Part shown: positions 21,259 to 35,138 of the stretch, piece after piece | Numbering within the stretch: the stretch's first letter is position 1 | Layout: every line of letters begins with the position of its first letter | From: Dyadobacter sediminis | GTDB taxonomy: Bacteria > Bacteroidota > Bacteroidia > Cytophagales > Spirosomataceae | Direction of reading: 5' to 3' | Length of the DNA stretch: 64,000 bases | Assembly (NCBI RefSeq): GCF_005860765.1 | Contig: NZ_VCEI01000021.1 | Coordinates: 434,001-498,000, forward strand | Made by a program: the position numbers and the translations under genes | Notes under the pieces: model-generated | The model's database searches: none | Told to the model about the DNA's origin: nothing | What the model saw: the letters and a program-made list of their open reading frames with translations, nothing else

Positions 21259-22470
21259 TCAGTACTCATGCGGGAGTGCAACATTGATGAGTTCATTCCA
21301 GGGAAGGCCGTGCTGATTCAGTAAATCCATAAACGGATCGGGATTCAGTTCCTCTACATTATAAACACCCGGTTTCATCCATTCTTCATTCGTAAGCATC
21401 AGCATGGCGCCGATCATGGCGGGAACTCCGGTTGTATAACTTACGGCCTGCGCTCTTACTTCTTCATAGCACTTTGCATGGTCGCAGTTGTTCCACACAT
21501 AATACGTTTTTTCTTCGCCGTTCTGAATGCCTTTGATCTGGCAGCCGATTGAAGTCTGGCCGGAATAATTTTCACCCAGCGAATCCGGAGCCGGAAGTAC
21601 TGCTTTCAAAAATTCCAGCGGAACAATGTCAATGCCTTTGAACTTGATCGGATGTATGCTGGTCATGCCGACATTTTCGAGCACATTCAAATGCGTAATG
21701 TAAGCCTGGCCGAACGTCATCCAGAAACGTGCCCTTTTCAGCGTAGGAAAATTTTTCACAAGCGATTCCAGCTCTTCATGATACAGCACATAACTTTCTT
21801 TCGGCCCGATTCCCGGATAGTCAATCGGTTTGTGGATGGACATGGCCGGAATTTCAACCCATTCGCCGTTTTCCCAGTAACGGCCGGGCTGCGTAATTTC
21901 CCGGATATTAATTTCCGGGTTAAAGTTCGTTGCAAATGCTTTTCCGTGATCACCGGCATTGCAGTCGATGATGTCCAGATAATGCATCTCGTCAAAATGA
22001 TGTTTGTTGGCATATGCGGTATAAACCTGCGTCACGCCGGGATCAAAACCACAGCCGAGTACAGCCATTAACCCGGCTTCCCTGAATCGTTCCTGATAAG
22101 CCCATTGCCAGCTGTATTCAAACTTGGCCACATCTTTCGGCTCGTAATTGGCCGTATCCAGATAATGAACGCCGGTCGCCAGGCAAGCTTCCATAATGGT
22201 CAGATCCTGATAAGGCAATGCCACGTTAATGAGTACTTTTGGCTGAAAGCGTTTGATCAGCAACACGGTTTCAGAAACAATATCAGCATCCACCTGAGCA
22301 GTTTCGATACTTACGCCGTGCATTTCGAGAATCTCGGCTGCTATTTTATCGCATTTGGCTTTGGTACGGCTTGCCAGCATAATTTCTGTGAAAACCTGAC
22401 TGTTAAGCGCACATTTATGTGCAACCACACTGCCAACGCCTCCTGCACCAATAATTAGAACCTTGGACAT
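21259..22470 (-). CDS. Carboxynorspermidine/carboxyspermidine dehydrogenase-like (saccharopine dehydrogenase family)
   Basis: The 403-residue protein begins with the NAD(P)-binding VLIIGAGGVGSVVAHKCALNS and belongs to the saccharopine dehydrogenase fold. Overall similarity is to carboxynorspermidine synthases, which condense aspartate semialdehyde with a diamine to give carboxy(nor)spermidine in the alternative polyamine pathway: GVHYLDTANYEPKDVAKFEY, GCGFDPGVTQVYTAYA and DCNAGDHGKAFATNFNPEINIREI are typical. The partner decarboxylase (NspC) is not in the window. It has its own good promoter, 195 nt downstream of eboF, so it need not be part of that operon. Confidence 0.85.
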   Translation of the reverse strand: MSKVLIIGAGGVGSVVAHKCALNSQVFTEIMLASRTKAKCDKIAAEILEMHGVSIETAQVDADIVSETVLLIKRFQPKVLINVALPYQDLTIMEACLATGVHYLDTANYEPKDVAKFEYSWQWAYQERFREAGLMAVLGCGFDPGVTQVYTAYANKHHFDEMHYLDIIDCNAGDHGKAFATNFNPEINIREITQPGRYWENGEWVEIPAMSIHKPIDYPGIGPKESYVLYHEELESLVKNFPTLKRARFWMTFGQAYITHLNVLENVGMTSIHPIKFKGIDIVPLEFLKAVLPAPDSLGENYSGQTSIGCQIKGIQNGEEKTYYVWNNCDHAKCYEEVRAQAVSYTTGVPAMIGAMLMLTNEEWMKPGVYNVEELNPDPFMDLLNQHGLPWNELINVALPHEY

Positions 22471-22665: not shown

Positions 22666-24030
22666 CTAAACCAGATGTTTCCAGATTACATCGTAAACGT
22701 CAATAGCTTCAATTTCCTCTTTTTCAAGCGCATTTTCCGTAATGCAAACGGGATAATATTCTTTGGAAACATTGATGCCGCCGTGAGAACCTTTGATCAG
22801 CGTCGCATCCAGCGGAATGACATCCATCAGATAACGGAAACCGAGCAGCTTACGGCCCAGCTTGTACCCCGCGCGCAATTTGATCAGCGGGTTTTTCGGG
22901 TCCATAAACATTTCAACAGGATCGTAACCGGGCTTGCGGTGAATGTCTACAAGATGCGCGTAATCCGGTGCTTTTGCATCGTCGAGCCAGTAATAATAAG
23001 TAAACCAGCTGTCGGGCTTGGCCAGCACCACAATGTCTCCGGAGCGTTCGTGGTCAATATGATATTGTTTCTGAGCTTCTTTGTTCAGAACAAGATCAAT
23101 GCCCGGTGTTTTTCTGAGAATATTCAAAACCTGTTCTTTCACCGTTTCGTCGTTCAGATAAATGTGTGCAATCTGATGATCGGAAACAGAAAATGCTTTG
23201 GAAACGCCTGCATCCAGCAGTTCGTACCAACGCTCTGTTCGAACGGAAACAAGCCCTGCCTCTCTTAAAAGCCGGTTGATATGGATCGGGTTGTTTACTG
23301 GATTGATACCGTACTCGGAAAGCAGAATTACTTTTGCATTTCTAGCTTCGTAGAATTTGACCAGTTCTTCCACTGTATTGTCAATTTCGTTCAGTTCTTT
23401 GGTGATCTTTGAAAAATCAGGCCCGAACTTCTGCAGACAATAATCAAGATGAGGAAGATATATTAATGTCAATGTCGGATTGTGCTTTTTTTCGACCCAC
23501 ATGGAAGAATCCGCAATCCATTTTGTTGCTTTGATATTGGCATTCGGCCCCCAAAAATTGAACAATGGAAACTGGCCAAGATCTTTCTGCAGTTCATCGC
23601 GCAGTTCGGGCGGGTTGGAGTAGCAGTCGGGCGCTTTTACGCCGTCGGCATGATACTGAGGACGCGGTGTTACCGAAAAATCGGCGCTCGAATACATATT
23701 ATACCACCAGAACATTTTTGCGCAGGTGAAATCCGTGTCCAGCTTTTTGGCCGCTTCCCATATTTTTTCCCCTTTTACCAGTTTGTTGGATTGTTTCCAG
23801 AACTTCACTTCGGAATCTTCGCGATCATACCAGCCATTTGCCACGATCCCGTTTTCGGAAGGCCATTTGCCTGTTACATAAGTACTTTGCGAAGTGGTCG
23901 TTAGTGCCGGAAGCAGCGGCTTGATCCGCGTGAGGTGATGTTTTTCAAGATAGCTTTTCAAGAAAGGCGTATGTTCGCCGATTACGCTGGAACTGAGTCC
24001 TACAATGTCAATTACGACTGTTTTATTCAT
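22666..24030 (-). CDS. eboF: EboF: alkaline-phosphatase-superfamily (nucleotide pyrophosphatase-like) protein
   Basis: This 454-residue protein has the fold of type I phosphodiesterases/nucleotide pyrophosphatases. The first metal-binding aspartate is in VVIDIVGLSS (D8), and the nucleophile region is PALTTTSQSTYVTGKWPSENG, with T44 at the expected threonine. The expected Dxx-GH and S-D-H-G motifs read LDYCLQKFGP (D196, Q200) and LLSEYGIN (S238-E239-Y240-G241), so several zinc ligands are replaced. A late histidine, IKGSHGG, is kept. No signal peptide is seen. In ebo clusters this is the last gene, and its function is not known. It overlaps eboE by 8 nt. Confidence 0.88.
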   Translation of the reverse strand: MNKTVVIDIVGLSSSVIGEHTPFLKSYLEKHHLTRIKPLLPALTTTSQSTYVTGKWPSENGIVANGWYDREDSEVKFWKQSNKLVKGEKIWEAAKKLDTDFTCAKMFWWYNMYSSADFSVTPRPQYHADGVKAPDCYSNPPELRDELQKDLGQFPLFNFWGPNANIKATKWIADSSMWVEKKHNPTLTLIYLPHLDYCLQKFGPDFSKITKELNEIDNTVEELVKFYEARNAKVILLSEYGINPVNNPIHINRLLREAGLVSVRTERWYELLDAGVSKAFSVSDHQIAHIYLNDETVKEQVLNILRKTPGIDLVLNKEAQKQYHIDHERSGDIVVLAKPDSWFTYYYWLDDAKAPDYAHLVDIHRKPGYDPVEMFMDPKNPLIKLRAGYKLGRKLLGFRYLMDVIPLDATLIKGSHGGINVSKEYYPVCITENALEKEEIEAIDVYDVIWKHLV

Positions 24031-25225
24031 AACGGAGTATTTTCTTCACCCATTCAATTTCCCTGACGATGGATTCGCCGATCGGTTTCTGCATGTCTTC
24101 GGGCAACACGCCCCAAGTATAAGTTTCAACCTCAAGGAAGGAAGAAAAAGGCTTTTCACGATGAAGCGCGAGTGTTTTTATAATGTCGTCCTGCGTGGAT
24201 TCCAGAACGCCGTACGTATTTATAAACAGCGGAACATGAAAATGTACACGCCATTCTTCCTGACTTTCATTCCAGTCGGAAAGCGCTTTGTCAAGATCGG
24301 GGTAATGTTTTTTACTGTTATCAGAATTTCTTGCAACAACCTGATGCAGATAAACAGGCTCGTTGAAGTTTTCGATTGCTTTCAGTTTGATTTCCTTTTC
24401 ATTTGAAAAATTCACCTTCAATGCCGAGCTCACCTGAATCCGTCCGACCTGAATGCCCGTTTCAGCAAGCGATTGCAGGATTTCTTCCGGTTGTTCGTAA
24501 CCTACGGCTGCATGACAGATATCGTAGCAGAGCTGAATATGTTTTAAGATCGTTTCTCTGGCTTCTGAAGCGGAAAGTCCGTTTGTCTTTTCCAGATGCG
24601 CAATGCCTTTTGGCAAAAGAACATTGCGGTACCAGTTTATAAAATCGGTTGTGTTGTCCAGCATGCCGTCCGGTTCGGGTTCAATGTCCAGATGAAGAGA
24701 CTTTCCGGTTTCATTTTCCAGAATGATCAGCTTGTCAAGCAAATGAAGAATATGACTCGTTGCCGTTTCTACAGCTCCGTGTTTTTCTTCCTCCGTTTGC
24801 CACCAGAGCCGGTACGACAAAGGCGGCGTGGAAACACCGCCGTGCATTCCTTCCGGAAGCAATGCCGCAAGAATATTGAAAAGCCGGATTGTATACACAA
24901 GCCGGTCGGTTGTAGTCCAGTCCGGCGTATGCACATCGTCTTTTACAACCGTGTTATGAAAACCGCCATAAGGAAAACCGTTGATCACAAAAACATAAAC
25001 GTTGTTTTCCTGCAGCCAGCTTTTGAATTCAGCCAGTACTTCCGGTTTGCTGAGCTCAACGGAAGCATCGTTTGCAATGCGCAAACCAAGTCCGAACGGC
25101 TCATTTCCGGCAAGCTGCTCACGAATGTAAGGAATATTTTCACGCAGGGATCGGAAATGGTCGGCCCATTTTTCGCCCGGATGAATGTTGCTGCAATAGG
25201 TTAAATGTCCGTACGGAGTGTTCAT
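24023..25225 (-). CDS. eboE: EboE: TIM-barrel (sugar isomerase-like) metabolite traffic protein
   Basis: The 400-residue protein resembles xylose-isomerase-like TIM barrels. The start HLTYCSNIHPGEKWADHF is characteristic of EboE, followed by GLGLRIANDASVEL and later acidic metal-site candidates in SLHLDIEPEPDGML and LCYDICHAAVGYEQP. The chain is longer than ordinary sugar phosphate isomerases (about 280). The biochemical reaction is unknown. It lies between eboD (35 nt) and eboF (8-nt overlap), so it is clearly part of the same transcript. Confidence 0.88.
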   Translation of the reverse strand: MNTPYGHLTYCSNIHPGEKWADHFRSLRENIPYIREQLAGNEPFGLGLRIANDASVELSKPEVLAEFKSWLQENNVYVFVINGFPYGGFHNTVVKDDVHTPDWTTTDRLVYTIRLFNILAALLPEGMHGGVSTPPLSYRLWWQTEEEKHGAVETATSHILHLLDKLIILENETGKSLHLDIEPEPDGMLDNTTDFINWYRNVLLPKGIAHLEKTNGLSASEARETILKHIQLCYDICHAAVGYEQPEEILQSLAETGIQVGRIQVSSALKVNFSNEKEIKLKAIENFNEPVYLHQVVARNSDNSKKHYPDLDKALSDWNESQEEWRVHFHVPLFINTYGVLESTQDDIIKTLALHREKPFSSFLEVETYTWGVLPEDMQKPIGESIVREIEWVKKILRYE

Positions 25226-25260
25226 AGTTCAATGGGTTTCAGCTTCTGGCGCACTAATAA

Positions 25261-26439
25261 TTATTCCAGTACCTTTGATTCGGTTAATTGAGACTGAAAC
25301 GCAGACAGGAAATCCACGGCATCCGAAATAATTCCGGTATCCAGTTCATGCACTTCTGTTCCTTTTCCGATTTTATCCAGCAGCATGATCGTCAACTGTC
25401 CGCCAAGATGTTCGCGGAATTCCTGCAGGCCGTTTCGCAGATTGATTTTGTCGTTTTCCGAAAGTTTCGGATGATATAATTCAAAACCCAGCTTGTGCAT
25501 TACCTCCAGAATACGGTTAAGGTCTGCTTCCGCCAATCTGCCGGCTTTGGCCGCATATACGCAGTCCAGTGCAATACCGATGGCAACAGCTTCGCCATGA
25601 CGGATTTCAAAGTTGGTCAGGTATTCCAGCTTGTGTGCAGCCCAGTGCCCGAAATCCAGCGGCCGCGAAGAACCGAATTCAAAAGGATCGCCGCCTGCAA
25701 TATGGTCCGTGTGCATTTCGGCGCAGCGGTGAATCAGATAAGCCATGGATTCCGTATCGCGGTGCGCAAGTGCAACGACATGTTCTTCCATCCATTCGAA
25801 AAAAGCAGCATCTTTAATAAGTGCAACTTTAATGGCTTCCGCAATGCCTGAGCGCCAGTCACGGTCGTCGAGGCTTTTCAGGAAAGTAAGGTCATTGAAT
25901 ACGGCGACGGGCGGTGCGAATGTTCCGAGAAAATTCTTCTTGCCGTGAAAGTTGATGCTGTTTTTTACGCCAACGCCCGAGTCATTCTGTGAAAGTACGG
26001 TTGTCGGTATGCGGATCAGCTTGATACCGCGGTGCGAAACGGCTGCTGCATAGCCCACAAGGTCAAGAACGGCGCCTCCGCCAATGGCAATAATAAAAGA
26101 ATGCCTGTCAATGCCGTACATATCCACCGCTTCTACAAGCCGGTTAAAAGTATTGATATCATTTTTTGCCGTTTCTCCGCCCGGAACCGATATGATTTCC
26201 GAAGCCAGCTGTACCTGCGGAACGGATTCACTGAAATAGGAACTGATCTGACCCGGAATTTCAGGATGATGATGCAGAAATCCTTCATCCGCTATAACCA
26301 GTGCCTTGCGCTGAAAACCCTGTTCGGAATAATCATTGAAGAAATTTTTCAGTAACGGGTTTTTCTGGTCAAACAGATAATGTGTGAAAAATACAGCGTA
26401 ACTGTATTCGACTTTAAAACTTTGTTGTATGGTTTGCAT
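25261..26439 (-). CDS. eboD: EboD: 3-dehydroquinate synthase-like sugar phosphate cyclase
   Basis: From ATG 26439 the protein has 392 residues and belongs to the dehydroquinate synthase superfamily, which cyclises sugar phosphates with NAD and zinc. It shows the NAD-binding AIGGGAVLDLVGYAAAVSHRG (118-138), IRIPTTVLSQNDSGVGVKN (142-160), and zinc ligands E201 (SGIAEAIK), H265 (DFGHWAAHKLE) and H281 (RHGEAVAIG). The motif DSGVGVKNSIN differs from the usual DSSVGGKTGVN of true dehydroquinate synthase and looks closer to C7-cyclitol synthases. A longer frame to 26526 adds a leader I think is untranslated. A separate promoter may lie in the 154-nt gap to eboC. Confidence 0.88.
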   Translation of the reverse strand: MQTIQQSFKVEYSYAVFFTHYLFDQKNPLLKNFFNDYSEQGFQRKALVIADEGFLHHHPEIPGQISSYFSESVPQVQLASEIISVPGGETAKNDINTFNRLVEAVDMYGIDRHSFIIAIGGGAVLDLVGYAAAVSHRGIKLIRIPTTVLSQNDSGVGVKNSINFHGKKNFLGTFAPPVAVFNDLTFLKSLDDRDWRSGIAEAIKVALIKDAAFFEWMEEHVVALAHRDTESMAYLIHRCAEMHTDHIAGGDPFEFGSSRPLDFGHWAAHKLEYLTNFEIRHGEAVAIGIALDCVYAAKAGRLAEADLNRILEVMHKLGFELYHPKLSENDKINLRNGLQEFREHLGGQLTIMLLDKIGKGTEVHELDTGIISDAVDFLSAFQSQLTESKVLE

Positions 26440-26523
26440 TCCGCTCTCGGTACTAATTGAAATTAAAAGGGCTGTACTAACTAAACGTTGAATAAAGGCA
26501 TTTTTACCTAAACGATGCCTGAT

Positions 26524-26531
26524 CAAATTTA
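26524..26531 (-). promoter_or_regulatory. Candidate internal -7 element ahead of eboD
   Basis: TAAATTTG on the minus strand fully matches TAnnTTTG and lies 84 nt upstream of ATG 26439, in the only large gap of the ebo cluster. No TTG is found at the -33 distance. Confidence 0.3.
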
Positions 26532-26593
26532 ATTCTCAACTTGTTTAATAATGACTCATTTGGGATAAAAAACCATTATTCAGGGGTGAAAAA

Positions 26594-27463
26594 TCAGGTT
26601 ACGGCAAACGCTTTCGCCAGCCAGATGGACAACGGCAGCAAAGCCATAACCGCAAGCGCAACCGGCCATAACCCGAATGCCACGCACCATGATGCATTCA
26701 TGACAATAAGGTAAATCACACCCGCTTTCACTGCTTTCCCGATCATCGGCCCAACCGGGTTTTGAACTGCATTCCATAACGGACGCCCGATGAGCCATGC
26801 ATGCAGCAGTACAAAAGGGAGTGTTAAAAGAATATTGCCCTGACTGCGTGCAATTGCCAGCTGGGAAACCAGTACGATCAGATAAAGAAATGCGGCTATG
26901 TAAAGCGTCCGGCGTTTTCCGCCGTGTACTTCATCCTGGCTGATCAGCGTAATGGCGCCGATGTAGGCAATGGGCAGCAATGCAATCCAGCCCCATTTAT
27001 CAAAAGATTCCGGTACCACGCTCATGCCCAGAAGCAGGTTTCCGCCGCGGCACAAACCCATAAACAAGGGCCCGAGAAAAACGGAATGCTTGGCAAACCG
27101 GTTGTATATAATCGTCAGCACCGCCACAACGAGCGCAATCATTCCGCTTGTGAAGCTGAACATGGCTGCCGCCAGTATGCCAAGGAACAAAAGGCTGATG
27201 CCCATCAGCGTTGCAGATCTCAGCGGAACTTTCCCGCTGGGAATCGGTCGCTCCGGACGTTCGATGCTGTCCAGCTTGGCATCAAAAACATCATTCATCA
27301 CAACGCCGCCGCTGTACAATCCCAAAGTGGAAATGACCAGCAATCCTGCCGGAAGATCAGCGAAAGTAAACTGTGCAATGGCCATTCCGGCCAGTATGTC
27401 CGCAACTGCAGTGACCAGATTAGCCGGCCTTGTTAATTGAATATAAGGTTTTAAACTGCTCAC
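26594..27463 (-). CDS. eboC: EboC: UbiA-family prenyltransferase
   Basis: The 289-residue integral membrane protein has about eight or nine membrane segments and the first Asp-rich motif of the UbiA family in full: NDVFDAKLDSIERPERPIPSG (about 57-77). The second motif is degenerate: ISQDEVHGGKRRTL, where other members have two aspartates. UbiA enzymes join a prenyl chain to an acceptor inside the membrane; here the acceptor would be the unknown Ebo metabolite. It begins 1 nt after the eboB stop, and a 154-nt gap follows it. Confidence 0.9.
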   Translation of the reverse strand: MSSLKPYIQLTRPANLVTAVADILAGMAIAQFTFADLPAGLLVISTLGLYSGGVVMNDVFDAKLDSIERPERPIPSGKVPLRSATLMGISLLFLGILAAAMFSFTSGMIALVVAVLTIIYNRFAKHSVFLGPLFMGLCRGGNLLLGMSVVPESFDKWGWIALLPIAYIGAITLISQDEVHGGKRRTLYIAAFLYLIVLVSQLAIARSQGNILLTLPFVLLHAWLIGRPLWNAVQNPVGPMIGKAVKAGVIYLIVMNASWCVAFGLWPVALAVMALLPLSIWLAKAFAVT

Positions 27464-27464
27464 T

Positions 27465-28493
27465 TTATCGAATAACTAAAGAATCTTTGGCAGAAGCCGG
27501 CTGCTGACCGCCTCTCAAAATACTGTTTCCGTGAAATTTGGCTGACTGATCCACTGCATGCCCGGCCTCAAAATCAGTAACGTCTATTTGTCCGCTTTTA
27601 CCAAAGGCATCGATGGCATTCTGATACGTTACAAGTCTGATTGTTTCGTCCGGAATTCCTCTCATTTTCATTAAAGCAGCCGTTTTAGGAATGGCGAGCG
27701 GATCGGAAATACCCCAGTCGGCCGCCGAGTTGACCATAATGCGTTCAGGTCCGTATTGTTCCACCACTTTCACCATTCGCTCATTTCCCATTTTGGTAAA
27801 CGGATAAATCGTGAAAGCCGCCCAGAATCCGTTATCCAGCACACTTTTTACCGTTTCTTCATTGTTATGATCAATAATTACCCACGACGGATCGATTCCG
27901 TGTTCCAAAGCAATTTCCATGCTGCGTATCGTTCCCTTCTTTTTGTCACGATGCGGCGTATGGATCTGAACAGGAAGTTTTGCCTCTTTGGCCAGTTCAA
28001 GCTGGAGACGGTAATATTTTTCCTCGGCAGGCGTCTGGTCATCAAAACCGATTTCGCCGACTCCGACGACGCCTTCCTTGTAAATGTAAAGCGGCAGGAT
28101 TTCCATGACCTGTTCAGCAAGCGGTTCATTGTTTGCTTCCCGGGAATTCAGGCCCATCGTACAGTAATGCTTGATCCCGAACTGCGAAGAACGGAACCGT
28201 TCCCAACCGACCAGACTGCTGTAATAATCCTTGAAACTGGAAAGTCCTGTACGCGGTTGCCCTACCCAGAATGCGGGCTCGATGAGTGCAATGATTCCCG
28301 CCTGACGCATGGCTTCGTAATCGTCTGTCGTACGCGAAACCATGTGAATATGCGGATCGAAAAACTGCATTCCTTTGATCAGGTCCTTGTATTCGTTCCA
28401 GGCAATTTCGCGGTGTGCGGGCGAGACATTGGCTTCCTCACTTTCTTCAAAGTGAGAAGGGTTTTGTGTATTTTCGTTATGATTCAGGCACAT
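27465..28493 (-). CDS. eboB: EboB: TatD-family metal-dependent hydrolase
   Basis: The 342-residue protein is of the TatD/amidohydrolase group. The first metal site HxH is in FFDPHIHMVSRTTDDYEAM (about 44-62). Others are the glutamate in VGVGEIGFDDQTP, the histidine in VQIHTPHRDKKKG and WVIIDHNNEETVKSV, and an aspartate near NSAADWGISDPL. It is longer than TatD nucleases by about 70 residues, mostly at the N-terminus and at a polar tail rich in Gln, Ser and Ala. The substrate is unknown. It starts 13 nt after eboA ends. Confidence 0.9.
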   Translation of the reverse strand: MCLNHNENTQNPSHFEESEEANVSPAHREIAWNEYKDLIKGMQFFDPHIHMVSRTTDDYEAMRQAGIIALIEPAFWVGQPRTGLSSFKDYYSSLVGWERFRSSQFGIKHYCTMGLNSREANNEPLAEQVMEILPLYIYKEGVVGVGEIGFDDQTPAEEKYYRLQLELAKEAKLPVQIHTPHRDKKKGTIRSMEIALEHGIDPSWVIIDHNNEETVKSVLDNGFWAAFTIYPFTKMGNERMVKVVEQYGPERIMVNSAADWGISDPLAIPKTAALMKMRGIPDETIRLVTYQNAIDAFGKSGQIDVTDFEAGHAVDQSAKFHGNSILRGGQQPASAKDSLVIR

Positions 28494-28506
28494 AGTATAT
28501 TAATGA

Positions 28507-29394
28507 TCAGTATTCAAGTTCCGCCCAGTTCAGCGATCCGGATTTCACAGCATTTTCAAGCTCATGGTTACGGGCTAGTAAATCTTTTGCAGCAGGAAAA
28601 TCCGATTCTGCACAGGCCAGTGCCGCAGCTTTCCGGTCAGCAGGATCATTCGACTGAAACAGATGTTCCATATCCGACAGCAAGGTTTCATTGATGTATT
28701 TTCCGACCAGCCGCCATACCTGCGGACCAACGCTACGTCCGGCCGCCCAGCGTTCATGCGCGAAGTCGGAAAGTGTTGCAGCCAGTTTTTCATTGGCCCG
28801 GTTTTCAAGTCCTTCGATCAGGTGCACAGGCTTGTCGTTAAAGATCGTTTTCAGTACGAGCTGGTTCCAGGCAAGTTCGGAGAAGTATTTTTCCGGATAC
28901 GGGTTACGCAAGGCAATGGCATCAAAAACAAAGCCCATATTGGAACGAACGGCATCCGTTGCCCGGAAAAGCCATTGTTCCGGAAACGAAAGCAACGGCA
29001 ATGCGGAGTAAAGTGCCACGAGTTCATTCATTTCAGCCGTATCAAAAAGCGTCTCGATATTTTTGACATATGCTTCCTTGTCCGAAGCGTCTATTTGTGT
29101 CAGCAGCCATACGCGGCTCAGCCTCGCAAGTGACCAGTTTTCAACGGAAAAGCCTTTAAGCTCTGCATTCAGTTCCGCCTGAACCTGTGCGGGGATGCTG
29201 ATGATTTTTTTGGAGACGGAGCGCGGGACGGCTACAAATCCCGTCATCAGTTCCATCGGGCTGGAAGTGCTTTTTTGCCGCAGCCATTCGGCTTCCTGAG
29301 CCGAGGTGTTCAGGATAATTATTTCCCAGAGTTTTTGTTTTATAAAATCAGACATAACGTATGAAACGGATACCGGATTACCGAAATTGATCAT
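28507..29394 (-). CDS. eboA: EboA family protein
   Basis: The 295-residue protein is mostly helical and has no catalytic motif I recognise. It is assigned by its place as the first of six genes in the canonical order A-B-C-D-E-F and by resemblance to EboA (for example SLARLSRVWLLTQIDASD, ALYSALPLLSFPEQWLFRATDAVRSNMGFVFDAIALRNPYP and GRSVGPQVWRLVGKYI). The latter segments suggest repeated alpha-hairpins, as in a HEAT-like scaffold. It could be a helper for the membrane steps, but that is guesswork. The start is ATG 29394; upstream is 243 nt with no gene and no clear promoter match. Confidence 0.82.
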   Translation of the reverse strand: MINFGNPVSVSYVMSDFIKQKLWEIIILNTSAQEAEWLRQKSTSSPMELMTGFVAVPRSVSKKIISIPAQVQAELNAELKGFSVENWSLARLSRVWLLTQIDASDKEAYVKNIETLFDTAEMNELVALYSALPLLSFPEQWLFRATDAVRSNMGFVFDAIALRNPYPEKYFSELAWNQLVLKTIFNDKPVHLIEGLENRANEKLAATLSDFAHERWAAGRSVGPQVWRLVGKYINETLLSDMEHLFQSNDPADRKAAALACAESDFPAAKDLLARNHELENAVKSGSLNWAELEY

Positions 29395-32942: not shown

Positions 32943-34232
32943 ATGAGTACATCCAGAAGAGACGTTCTGAAAATGGCAGGACTCGCACTTGCCGGCAGCG
33001 CAATGCCTGCTGTCACCATTCTTAATCCGAACCGCGCATTCGCCGGTGTGAACAGCGAAACGCTGAAAGTTGGTTTGATCGGTTGCGGCGGACGCGGTTC
33101 CGGTGCTGCAAACCAGGCCCTGAAAGCTGATCCAAACGTTGTACTGCATGCAATGGGCGATATTTTCAAGGACAAAATGGATTCGTCGCTTGAAAACCTG
33201 ACCAAAGTGCATGGCGCAAAAGTAAAGGTAGACGAAGGCCACAAGTTCATCGGGTTTGATGCATTCAAAAAAGTGCTGGATTCCGGCGTTGATGTGGTGA
33301 TTCTGGCTACTCCGCCGCATTTCCGCCCCGAGCACCTTACTGCTGCAATCAATGCTGGAAAACACGTATTCTGTGAAAAACCAGTTGCGGTTGACGCTCC
33401 CGGCGTTCGTAAAGTCCTTGACGCGGCAAAGCTTGCCAAACAAAAAAATGTATCCTTGATGTCCGGCTTTTGCTGGAGATACCATGAGCCGAAACGTGCC
33501 AGCTTCGGAAAAATCCTGGACGGCGCAGTAGGCGATATTTCTGCTGTTTACAACACGTATGATACCGGAACACTCTGGTCGTTCCCGCGCGTAGCCGGCT
33601 GGACAGATGCCGAATATGTATTGCGTAACTGGACTTACTATACCTGGCTGGCAGGAGATCATATCGTGGAACAGGCCGTTCACAGTATCGACATGATGTC
33701 GTGGGCAATGGGTGGAAAGCTGCCTTTGTCATGCGTTGGGACCGGCGGAAGACAAGTTCGTACGGATGCATTGTTCGGAAATATCTTTGACCATTTTGCC
33801 GTAACGTATGAATACGAAAACGGCGTAAAAGGATTCCATCATTCCAGACAGCAGGCCAACTGCGAAAACAGCTATCTGGTGGAAACGATCGGAACAAAAG
33901 GCCGTGCAATGGTGAACTGTGCGCGTAACGTACACGAAATCTACGGACAGAATCCATGGAAATACGAAGGTGCACAAAACGATATGTACCAGACAGAACA
34001 TAACGAACTGTTTGCTTCCATCCGAAGCGGAAAGCATGTGAATGACGGCGAATTCATGGCGCAAAGCACACTTCTTGCCATTATGGGAAGAATGGCTGCT
34101 TACACCGGAAAGCGCATTACCTGGAATGAAGCAATGAACTCGACGGAAAAACTCGGACCGGACACATACAGCTTCGATATGAAGCCGCCGGTTGTTGAAG
34201 TTGCCAAACCTGGTATCACTGCTTTCTCGTAA
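32943..34232 (+). CDS. Tat-exported Gfo/Idh/MocA-family oxidoreductase
   Basis: The 429-residue protein carries a clear twin-arginine signal (STSRRDVLKMAGLALAGSAMPA), then a Rossmann domain (LKVGLIGCGGRGSGAANQAL, about 42-61), the family signature CEKPVAVDAPGVRKVL, and a C-terminal alpha/beta domain with HIVEQAVHSIDMMSWAMGG. Such enzymes oxidise or reduce sugars with tightly bound NAD(P), and Tat export allows cofactor loading before periplasmic folding. The Bacteroidota members are glycoside-modifying in several cases; the substrate here is unknown. The TIM-barrel isomerase gene starts 3 nt later. Confidence 0.93.
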   Translation: MSTSRRDVLKMAGLALAGSAMPAVTILNPNRAFAGVNSETLKVGLIGCGGRGSGAANQALKADPNVVLHAMGDIFKDKMDSSLENLTKVHGAKVKVDEGHKFIGFDAFKKVLDSGVDVVILATPPHFRPEHLTAAINAGKHVFCEKPVAVDAPGVRKVLDAAKLAKQKNVSLMSGFCWRYHEPKRASFGKILDGAVGDISAVYNTYDTGTLWSFPRVAGWTDAEYVLRNWTYYTWLAGDHIVEQAVHSIDMMSWAMGGKLPLSCVGTGGRQVRTDALFGNIFDHFAVTYEYENGVKGFHHSRQQANCENSYLVETIGTKGRAMVNCARNVHEIYGQNPWKYEGAQNDMYQTEHNELFASIRSGKHVNDGEFMAQSTLLAIMGRMAAYTGKRITWNEAMNSTEKLGPDTYSFDMKPPVVEVAKPGITAFS

Positions 34233-34235
34233 TAT

Positions 34236-35138
34236 ATGCAAAGAAGGGAATTTCTGAAAAACACTGCATTGGCGGCTACGGCCGCAGCAGTGGGAACTAC
34301 GCTTGTTTCCGACGCCATGGCCGCCCCGCTGGCCAGACCGATGATCAAAAAAAGTCTGAAATGGGGAATGGTCAAAGAAGAACTTTCCATTATGGACAAG
34401 TTCAAGCTCCTGAAAGATCTGGGTTATGACGGCGTCGAACTGGATTCACCGGATAATCTGGACATGAAAGAAGTGTTGGCAGCAAGGGATAAAACAGGTC
34501 TGGAACTGCCGGGAACTGTCAATTCGATGCACTGGAAACTGCCGCTATCCGATCCTGATCCGAAGAAAAGGGAAGAATGCGTGAAATCCATTGAAAAGGC
34601 ATTGCGCGATACCAAGCAATATGGCGGAACAACGGTTCTGGTTGTGCCGGGTGTCGTTAATGCAAGCGTGAGTTACAAGGAGGCATACGAGCGTTCGCAG
34701 GCGGAAATCCGCAAGCTGTTGCCGGTTGCAGAAGAAACAGGCGTTAAAATCGCTTTTGAAAATGTCTGGAACCAATTTTTGCTGAGCCCACTGGAAGCCG
34801 CGCGTTATGTCGACGAGTTCAATCATCCAATGGTCGGCTGGTATTTCGATGTAGGAAATGTTCTGCGTTACAGCTGGCCTGCTTCCTGGATTGAAGCACT
34901 GGACAAGCGCATCCTGAAACTGGATCTGAAAGAATTCAGCTTTAAGAAACAAAACGAGCTTGGCCTCTGGAAAGGCTTTGACGTTGAGTTTATGGAAGGC
35001 GACTGCAACTGGTCCGATGTAAACAAGGCGCTTCAGAAAATCGGGTATTCCGGCTGGGCTTCTGCGGAAGTGGCAGGCGGAGACCGGAAACGGCTGCTGA
35101 CGATCCGTGAGAAAATGGACGAAGTTTTTAAAGCGTGA
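34236..35138 (+). CDS. Exported sugar phosphate isomerase/epimerase-like TIM-barrel protein
   Basis: The 300-residue protein begins with a Tat-like leader (MQRREFLKNTALAATAAAVG), followed by a xylose-isomerase-type TIM barrel. Metal-site candidates occur in VKIAFENVWNQFLL, GWYFDVGNVLRYSWPASW, LDLKEFSF and EGDCNWSDVNKAL. Pairing with a Gfo/Idh/MocA dehydrogenase is common in Bacteroidota and Planctomycetes and suggests oxidised (keto) sugars handled in the periplasm. The 3-nt gap supports one transcript. A perfect palindromic terminator follows 15 nt after the stop. Confidence 0.92.
   Translation: MQRREFLKNTALAATAAAVGTTLVSDAMAAPLARPMIKKSLKWGMVKEELSIMDKFKLLKDLGYDGVELDSPDNLDMKEVLAARDKTGLELPGTVNSMHWKLPLSDPDPKKREECVKSIEKALRDTKQYGGTTVLVVPGVVNASVSYKEAYERSQAEIRKLLPVAEETGVKIAFENVWNQFLLSPLEAARYVDEFNHPMVGWYFDVGNVLRYSWPASWIEALDKRILKLDLKEFSFKKQNELGLWKGFDVEFMEGDCNWSDVNKALQKIGYSGWASAEVAGGDRKRLLTIREKMDEVFKA

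Follow-up and report, generated by a model that had tools for sequence, protein, structure and literature searches.

What the ebo genes make, and whether a copy of them shows the core chemistry alone, are the questions raised by a gene cluster of Dyadobacter sediminis (Bacteroidota; Cytophagales; Spirosomataceae). The cluster lies within a stretch of 64,000 nucleotides (nt) that we call the window (NCBI RefSeq assembly GCF_005860765.1, contig NZ_VCEI01000021.1, positions 434,001 to 498,000 of the forward strand). An open reading frame (ORF) scan of the window found six ORFs without internal stops on the minus strand at positions 22666-29394, corresponding to eboA through eboF in canonical order. 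Comparison with other genomes confirmed a complete ABCDEF-type ebo cluster, an ordinary representative of a known family. As to its function, we lean towards synthesis of a prenylated cyclitol lipid, which would help small molecules across the inner membrane, with the membrane protein TMEM220 as a likely partner in Bacteroidota.

The first gene, eboA (28507-29394), encodes a predicted all-helical solenoid protein that scored 183.9 bits against NF035938 (cut-off, 50) and 218.1 bits against a narrower EboA model, NF035937, below the cut-off of 320. Its true start is more probably the internal ATG at 29355, because a relative (L060) begins MSDIIKQ where the window reads MSDFIKQ. Next come eboB (27465-28493), encoding a TatD-like metal-dependent hydrolase (PF01026, 55 bits; cut-off, 27), and eboC (26594-27463, with a GTG start), encoding a UbiA-type membrane prenyltransferase (NF035940, 399.5 bits; cut-off, 250). 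The longest ORF of eboD begins with TTG at 26526; from the alternative ATG at 26439, the gene spans 25261-26439 and encodes a sugar phosphate cyclase (PRK06203, 590.9 bits; cut-off, 333). The last two genes are eboE (24023-25225), for a xylose-isomerase-like TIM-barrel protein (NF035939, 504.3 bits; cut-off, 250), and eboF (22666-24030), for an alkaline-phosphatase-superfamily protein (PF01663, 205.9 bits; cut-off, 23). Given the ATG start of eboD, the intergenic gaps are 13, 1, 154, and 35 nt and eboE overlaps eboF by 8 nt, exactly as in the initial annotation, which had recognized six same-strand genes in canonical order. The profiles bear that identification out, as EboA, EboC, and EboE score above their cut-offs and the searches did not place two or more of the six proteins outside the Ebo families. 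EboB, EboD, and EboF matched no ebo-specific model and were assigned by family, gene order, and alignment to other loci. EboB and EboF fall into the same families as their counterparts elsewhere (71/80 and 79/80 loci, respectively). EboB scored 36.3 bits against the TatD subfamily model TIGR00010, under its cut-off of 206, and thus does not class as a TatD DNase.

The cluster in Dyadobacter is not a product of chance, because EboB is present in 13/13 genomes of the genus and EboA-F occur together, in the same order, in all 12 Dyadobacter relatives fetched. Across the phylum, EboE was found in 31 of 395 evenly drawn genomes, and the distribution is therefore scattered. We examined gene order in the 80 best named loci, which carry 42 genus labels when each unnamed lineage counts as one label. 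The order A-F on one strand recurs in 68 of these loci, from 34 genus labels, with no gene between in 59; several of the remaining loci are cut by contig ends or by the simple ORF picker. The order is thus not unique to this genome, in agreement with its description as canonical. Yurchenko et al. (2016; PMC5133447) already described the ebo gene order in Bacteroidota, naming Dyadobacter and proposing it as a possible donor of the Leptospira ebo operon. The six families, their order, and their strand are alike in the ABCDEF-type operon of Bacteroidota, cyanobacteria, Leptospira, and eustigmatophyte plastids treated there, and the six Dyadobacter genes show no difference from it; TMEM220, adjacent in other Bacteroidota, is unlinked in Dyadobacter. 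Nostoc punctiforme has homologues of EboA-C, EboE, and EboF in common with Dyadobacter, but its cluster serves scytonemin, with eboD apart and in the opposite direction, whereas eboD stands in line in Dyadobacter (Klicki et al. 2018; PMC6282210). The export role in Nostoc was assigned by mutant phenotype.

Two genomes of the same taxonomic order have dispersed ebo genes, within a search that covered EboA, EboB, EboD, and EboE. In one (G015), EboB, EboE, and an EboD-like cyclase are on C3, C9, and C19, respectively; in the other (G016), 0.4-0.7 Mb separate EboB from EboE and the cyclase, and EboA is close to EboB. EboD and EboE are present there, unlinked, together with EboB, and therefore linkage alone does not hold these genes together. 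The EboB homologues of these genomes (L029 in G015, L028 in G016; 71-72% identity) stand apart from the other ebo genes of the same genomes.

In the pathway we favor, EboD would cyclize a sugar phosphate, either sedoheptulose 7-phosphate or glucose 6-phosphate, to a cyclitol ketone. Isomerization or dehydration of the ring would fall to EboE, for which EboA would serve as a helical scaffold or clamp, and EboC would attach a prenyl chain, probably farnesyl, to it in the membrane. EboB may take off a group by metal-dependent hydrolysis, and EboF, with its unusual metal site, may bind or split a phosphate compound. The prenylated cyclitol would act as a carrier or membrane component that aids small molecules across the inner membrane, and TMEM220 would be its likely partner in Bacteroidota. 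The prenyl-cyclitol idea itself is that of Yurchenko et al. (PMC5133447), and a prenylated cyclitol as carrier or membrane component has been proposed in print (PMC5133447, PMC6282210). Every ebo mutant tested in Nostoc keeps the scytonemin monomer in the cytoplasm, and the export role is published for scytonemin in Nostoc only (PMC6282210). The same paper relates that Pseudomonas transposon mutants lose nematode resistance.

The exchange of cyclases described below lends new support to the published idea. By profile scores and alignment, EboD is a sugar phosphate cyclase and not the housekeeping AroB (3-dehydroquinate [DHQ] synthase). AroB and EboD share their superfamily and the fold-defining domains PF01761 and PF24621, but EboD scored 230.4 bits against the AroB model TIGR01357, below its cut-off of 305, and the Dyadobacter genome has a separate AroB at G000:C29 (348.2 bits). 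Motifs also set EboD apart: it has LDFGH/VDFGH, INF/VNF, and KVAL-KD in common with the cyclase 4p53 (ValA), where DHQ synthases have LNLGH, AVN-H/GIN-H, and K-YG/YA.

In some clusters a different cyclase takes the place of EboD. Among 48 plasmid records with EboE (E limits of 1e-60 and 1e-40), and within 8 kb in each case, 15 have EboD, 29 have inositol-3-phosphate synthase, none has both, and four have neither. The synthase lies 4.4-5.2 kb from EboE in the 29 records. Of 14 plasmid loci studied in detail, seven (Aureibacter, Deinococcus, Ketogulonicigenium, Azospirillum, Mycetohabitans, Roseivivax, and Salipiger) have EboD without the synthase and seven (five Streptomyces, Nonomuraea, and Gemmatirosa) the reverse. 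The synthase of one locus passes both family Pfam cut-offs (168.3 and 101.8 bits), and all seven synthase loci contain an extra isomerase gene, for which PF01261 was checked in one. These ebo-like clusters of Actinomycetota and Gemmatimonadota (Streptomyces NBC_00663 and others) carry a single uninterrupted series of genes for EboA or EboG, EboB, EboE, EboF, and a UbiA enzyme. They differ from Dyadobacter in having the synthase instead of EboD, an SCO3242-type UbiA enzyme (locus L196), and the extra isomerase. A Gloeothece record has EboD and no EboE on the same plasmid, and five haloarchaeal synthase records are without EboE. We found no description of an ebo cluster with inositol-3-phosphate synthase in the open-licence literature, and the word inositol is absent from the three ebo papers. 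The exchange supports a need of the ebo pathway for a cyclitol intermediate. In residue alignments, which took in 10 of the 14 plasmid loci (L190-L203, with L197, L200, L201, and L202 left out), the candidate catalytic residues of EboD are complete at the listed positions in 85/85 sequences.

Some plasmid loci have further genes nearby. In Ketogulonicigenium (L192:4786-6832), two Gfo/Idh/MocA oxidoreductases directly precede eboD; this family includes inositol dehydrogenases. A lone EboE on a Streptomyces plasmid (L204:6989-8167), one of the four records with neither cyclase, sits in what resembles a type II polyketide cluster, between genes whose annotations are acyl carrier protein, FabG, aromatase/cyclase, and monooxygenases. 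Three records from three phyla, Aureibacter (L190:1046-4106), Mycetohabitans (L194:2054-5072), and Gloeothece (L207:9888-13169), carry near ebo or EboB-EboD a gene pair for a protein of about 600 amino acids beginning MSYLN and a PF12902 ferritin-like protein, which we take to be VioB-like.

A second lead came from the neighbors of the cluster. We grouped, without bias, 1362 ORFs drawn from the 80 loci plus a portion of the window; the ebo families occur in 35-42 genus labels, the next family in 14, and the one after that in 6. The family found in 14/42 labels is TMEM220 (PF15071, 88.3 bits; cut-off, 27), the only widely recurrent extra neighbor of ebo (30/80 loci). It directly adjoins eboA or eboF in 29 of these 30 loci, with Adhaeribacter the exception (2.2 kb), and is placed upstream on the same strand in 20, upstream and divergent in 5, downstream on the same strand in 2, and downstream on the opposite strand in 3. 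In the 395 phylum genomes, TMEM220 is present in 24/31 with EboE and in 26/364 without it, where one match falls below the cut-off. By genus, the counts are 16/19 and 15/152. By Fisher test, uncorrected for the species tree, p is about 1e-18 for genomes and 2e-11 for genera. The D. sediminis window contains no TMEM220 gene, and the genome has one unlinked copy (G000:C22). All 13 Dyadobacter genomes have a TMEM220 match; that of G012 is split into two overlapping pieces (G012:C2:1604639-1604921), which may reflect a disrupted gene or a fault in the assembly. The suggestion in the initial annotation that this copy could show the core chemistry alone is thus doubtful, as a gene that neighbors ebo elsewhere is present in the same genome. 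Because TMEM220 adjoins ebo in 30/80 Bacteroidota loci and occurs elsewhere in the Dyadobacter genome, it is likely an unlinked partner of the cluster in Dyadobacter. In the accessible portions of the literature, the sole co-mention of TMEM220 and ebo was a cancer study. Human TMEM220 is reported to reside at the Golgi and to be required for the secretion of glycoproteins, which is impaired when the protein is knocked down (PMC6979480); a link between it and ebo is speculation.

Several observations weigh against the prenylated cyclitol pathway. No ebo product has been isolated to date. EboD keeps the second His of GHxxxH as in DHQ synthases, unlike 4p53. The independent cases of cyclase exchange are few (Streptomyces, Embleya, Nonomuraea, and Gemmatirosa), with 25 of the 29 synthase records from Streptomyces, and of the four EboE records with neither cyclase, the three examined are partial. 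Inositol-3-phosphate synthase retains the phosphate and EboD-type cyclases release it, so the two are not simply equivalent. The inositol version in Actinomycetota could represent a separate, parallel route to a different product, because its UbiA partner belongs to the SCO3242 subfamily (in Streptomyces L196, 352.4 bits against the SCO3242 model vs 118.8 against the EboC model). On the acceptor side, EboC homologues (Ubi-297) accepted quinoline acids for farnesylation but neither phenols nor catechols, and no cyclitol is named in the sections consulted of that report (PMC9235831). Against the TMEM220 link, 7 of the 31 genomes with EboE are without it, it stands with no ebo genes nearby in the 17 EboE-negative contexts fetched (of 26), and the 18 plasmid loci L190-L207, mostly from other phyla, yielded none near ebo.

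These TMEM220 gaps, together with its absence near ebo in 15 regions (L016-L029 and the window) and its presence in the 26 EboE-negative genomes, would also fit an association that is a by-product of shared ancestry in Bacteroidota, without functional meaning. The four different arrangements and the contrast between genera with and without EboE speak against such a by-product, as does the TMEM220 tree, built on 61 rows (31 copies from the 30 named loci plus, out of 50 matching phylum genomes, the 30 returned as loci). The ebo-linked copies do not form a single clade in the tree and therefore fit repeated linkage instead of a single ebo-specific subfamily; the label "adjacent" needs 8 changes, at least 4 of them forced by well-supported branches. 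We consider shared ancestry a serious explanation, if an unlikely one.

A third lead concerns EboF, whose predicted fold (predicted local distance difference test [pLDDT] score, 90.6) matched structure 1ei6 with an E value of 5.1e-19. The metal site of two-zinc phosphodiesterases (NPP/PhnA) consists of seven residues: D, T, D, H, D, H, and H. In alignments, phosphonoacetate hydrolase and nucleotide phosphodiesterases have the motifs D-xxx-H and DH where EboF has D-xxx-Q and EY. Across 90 sequences, the seven positions in EboF are D8 (75/90), T44 (90/90), D196 (90/90), Q200 (90/90), E239 (89/90), Y240 (90/90), and H416 (90/90), with H416 placed by motif and the positions taken from sequence alignments and the fold. 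Thus, EboF shares the fold and the nucleophile Thr with phosphonoacetate hydrolase and the nucleotide pyrophosphatase-phosphodiesterases but does not carry their seven-residue site: three of the expected ligands are replaced (His to Gln at Q200, Asp to Glu at E239, and His to Tyr at Y240) in 89-90 of the 90 sequences, and a fourth is variable. A role as a hydrolase of a phosphate compound therefore looks less safe than the family annotation suggests. A doubtful alternative is that EboF works as an ordinary two-zinc phosphodiesterase, tolerant of altered ligands, and that the changed residues are uninformative on its role; the retained fold, T44, D196, and H416 are consistent with this. However, the three replacements are fixed across Bacteroidota, Deinococcota, Pseudomonadota, and Actinomycetota. 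Only 75/90 sequences keep the first Asp, and EboF has new invariants of its own (D284, H285, H289, and H327). The initial annotation, sound on the complete canonical cluster and its conserved order, and on the phosphodiesterase-like fold of EboF, therefore needs revision at this metal site as well as on the core chemistry.

The candidate metal ligands of EboB (H48, H50, E147, H178, H209, and D259) are present in 82/82 sequences, and those of EboE (E182/E184, D235, H238, H328/H330, and E365/E367) in 91/91. The nearest solved sequence to EboB is 3guw AF_1765 (E value, 1.8e-23); an EboE profile run against PDB sequences gave nothing meaningful. EboA was modeled by AlphaFold with high confidence as a helical solenoid consisting entirely of helices (pLDDT, 96.2), with F172, K169, E201, R202, A205, and R207 in 84/84 sequences. 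Against PDB structures, EboA had no match with an E value of 0.001 or lower, only unspecific helical-repeat matches (best E value, 0.11). The EboA and EboF structure alignments comprised 67 and 73 loci, respectively, by a length filter. EboC has the motif N57-D58-xx-D61-xxx-D65, with N57, D58, D61, and D65 in 81/81 sequences. Outside their own and each other's models, EboC and the Streptomyces UbiA enzyme score best with DGGGP-synthase-type models (for EboC, 96.1 and 88.5 bits vs 37.7 for the aromatic ubiA_proteo). DGGGP synthases prenylate a polyol hydroxyl, a point in favor of the prenylated cyclitol.

EboC might instead prenylate an aromatic (quinoline) acid, so that the product would be a farnesylated aromatic meroterpenoid and EboD would supply a shikimate-like ring precursor. 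Farnesylation of 8-hydroxyquinoline-2-carboxylic acid in vitro by EboC homologues is published, which the initial annotation had omitted; three homologues accepted this acid and quinaldic acid, and nuclear magnetic resonance supports ring prenylation (PMC9235831). These assays used crude membranes and chosen test acceptors, with product from 6/14 aromatic acceptors. No quinoline-making gene is among the recurrent ebo neighbors, and the exchange of EboD for inositol-3-phosphate synthase is at odds with an aromatic precursor. We regard an aromatic product as improbable. We give equally little credence to the Ebo proteins as an export apparatus in their own right, in which a complex centered on EboC and EboA would transport small molecules and make no metabolite: the single export phenotype common to all the tested Nostoc mutants (PMC6282210) and an EboA solenoid suited to holding partners together speak for it, but the candidate catalytic residues are complete in EboB, EboD, and EboE, and swapping one cyclase for another matters only if the reaction product does.

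The prenylated cyclitol pathway can be stated more specifically: the lipid would be O-prenylated, with either EboD or inositol-3-phosphate synthase as the cyclase, TMEM220 would in Bacteroidota be a seventh component that handles or moves the lipid even where unlinked, as in Dyadobacter, and EboF would act with a remodeled metal site. We put this forward tentatively, as a version that is unlikely to hold in full.

No scytonemin-like genes were seen among the two direct flanks and 10 further window proteins put through Pfam, with no scy-specific profile run. A carboxynorspermidine-synthase-like saccharopine dehydrogenase gene (21259-22470), on the same strand after eboF, was considered as a seventh gene and rejected because it scored 408 bits against NF043000, under the cut-off of 800, and lies 1.3-1.5 kb off in most Dyadobacter regions. 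It is kept in 11/12 Dyadobacter regions fetched, and its family is not in the 40 most widespread neighbor families listed, in a similarity grouping that may miss weak relatives. A Bacteroidota-type promoter pattern occurs at 3 sites in the window (3.29 expected), none of them upstream of eboA. Rfam and tRNA searches of the window gave no match. Upstream of eboA by 3.5 kb is a pair consisting of a putative oxidoreductase with a twin-arginine-like start, read from sequence alone (32943-34232), and, following it, a PF01261 sugar isomerase (34236-35138). Keto-sugar enzyme families akin to this pair occur near ebo in a few other genera, perhaps simply owing to their abundance in these genomes.

The ebo genes are spread over several phyla and algal plastids. 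Mutually replacing cyclases would narrow their chemistry to one class of intermediate and allow a direct genetic test of substitution. The recurrent membrane partner TMEM220 is a candidate translocator, a step that the Nostoc work could fill only by guessing at a capsule ABC transporter (PMC6282210). If TMEM220 does handle or move an ebo lipid, human TMEM220 would come from a family whose ancient function lies in the membrane traffic of small molecules or lipids. For Dyadobacter itself, the ebo cluster is a routine finding; its value lies in the comparative leads it opens, namely the exchange between two cyclases, the altered metal site of EboF, and TMEM220 as a likely partner.

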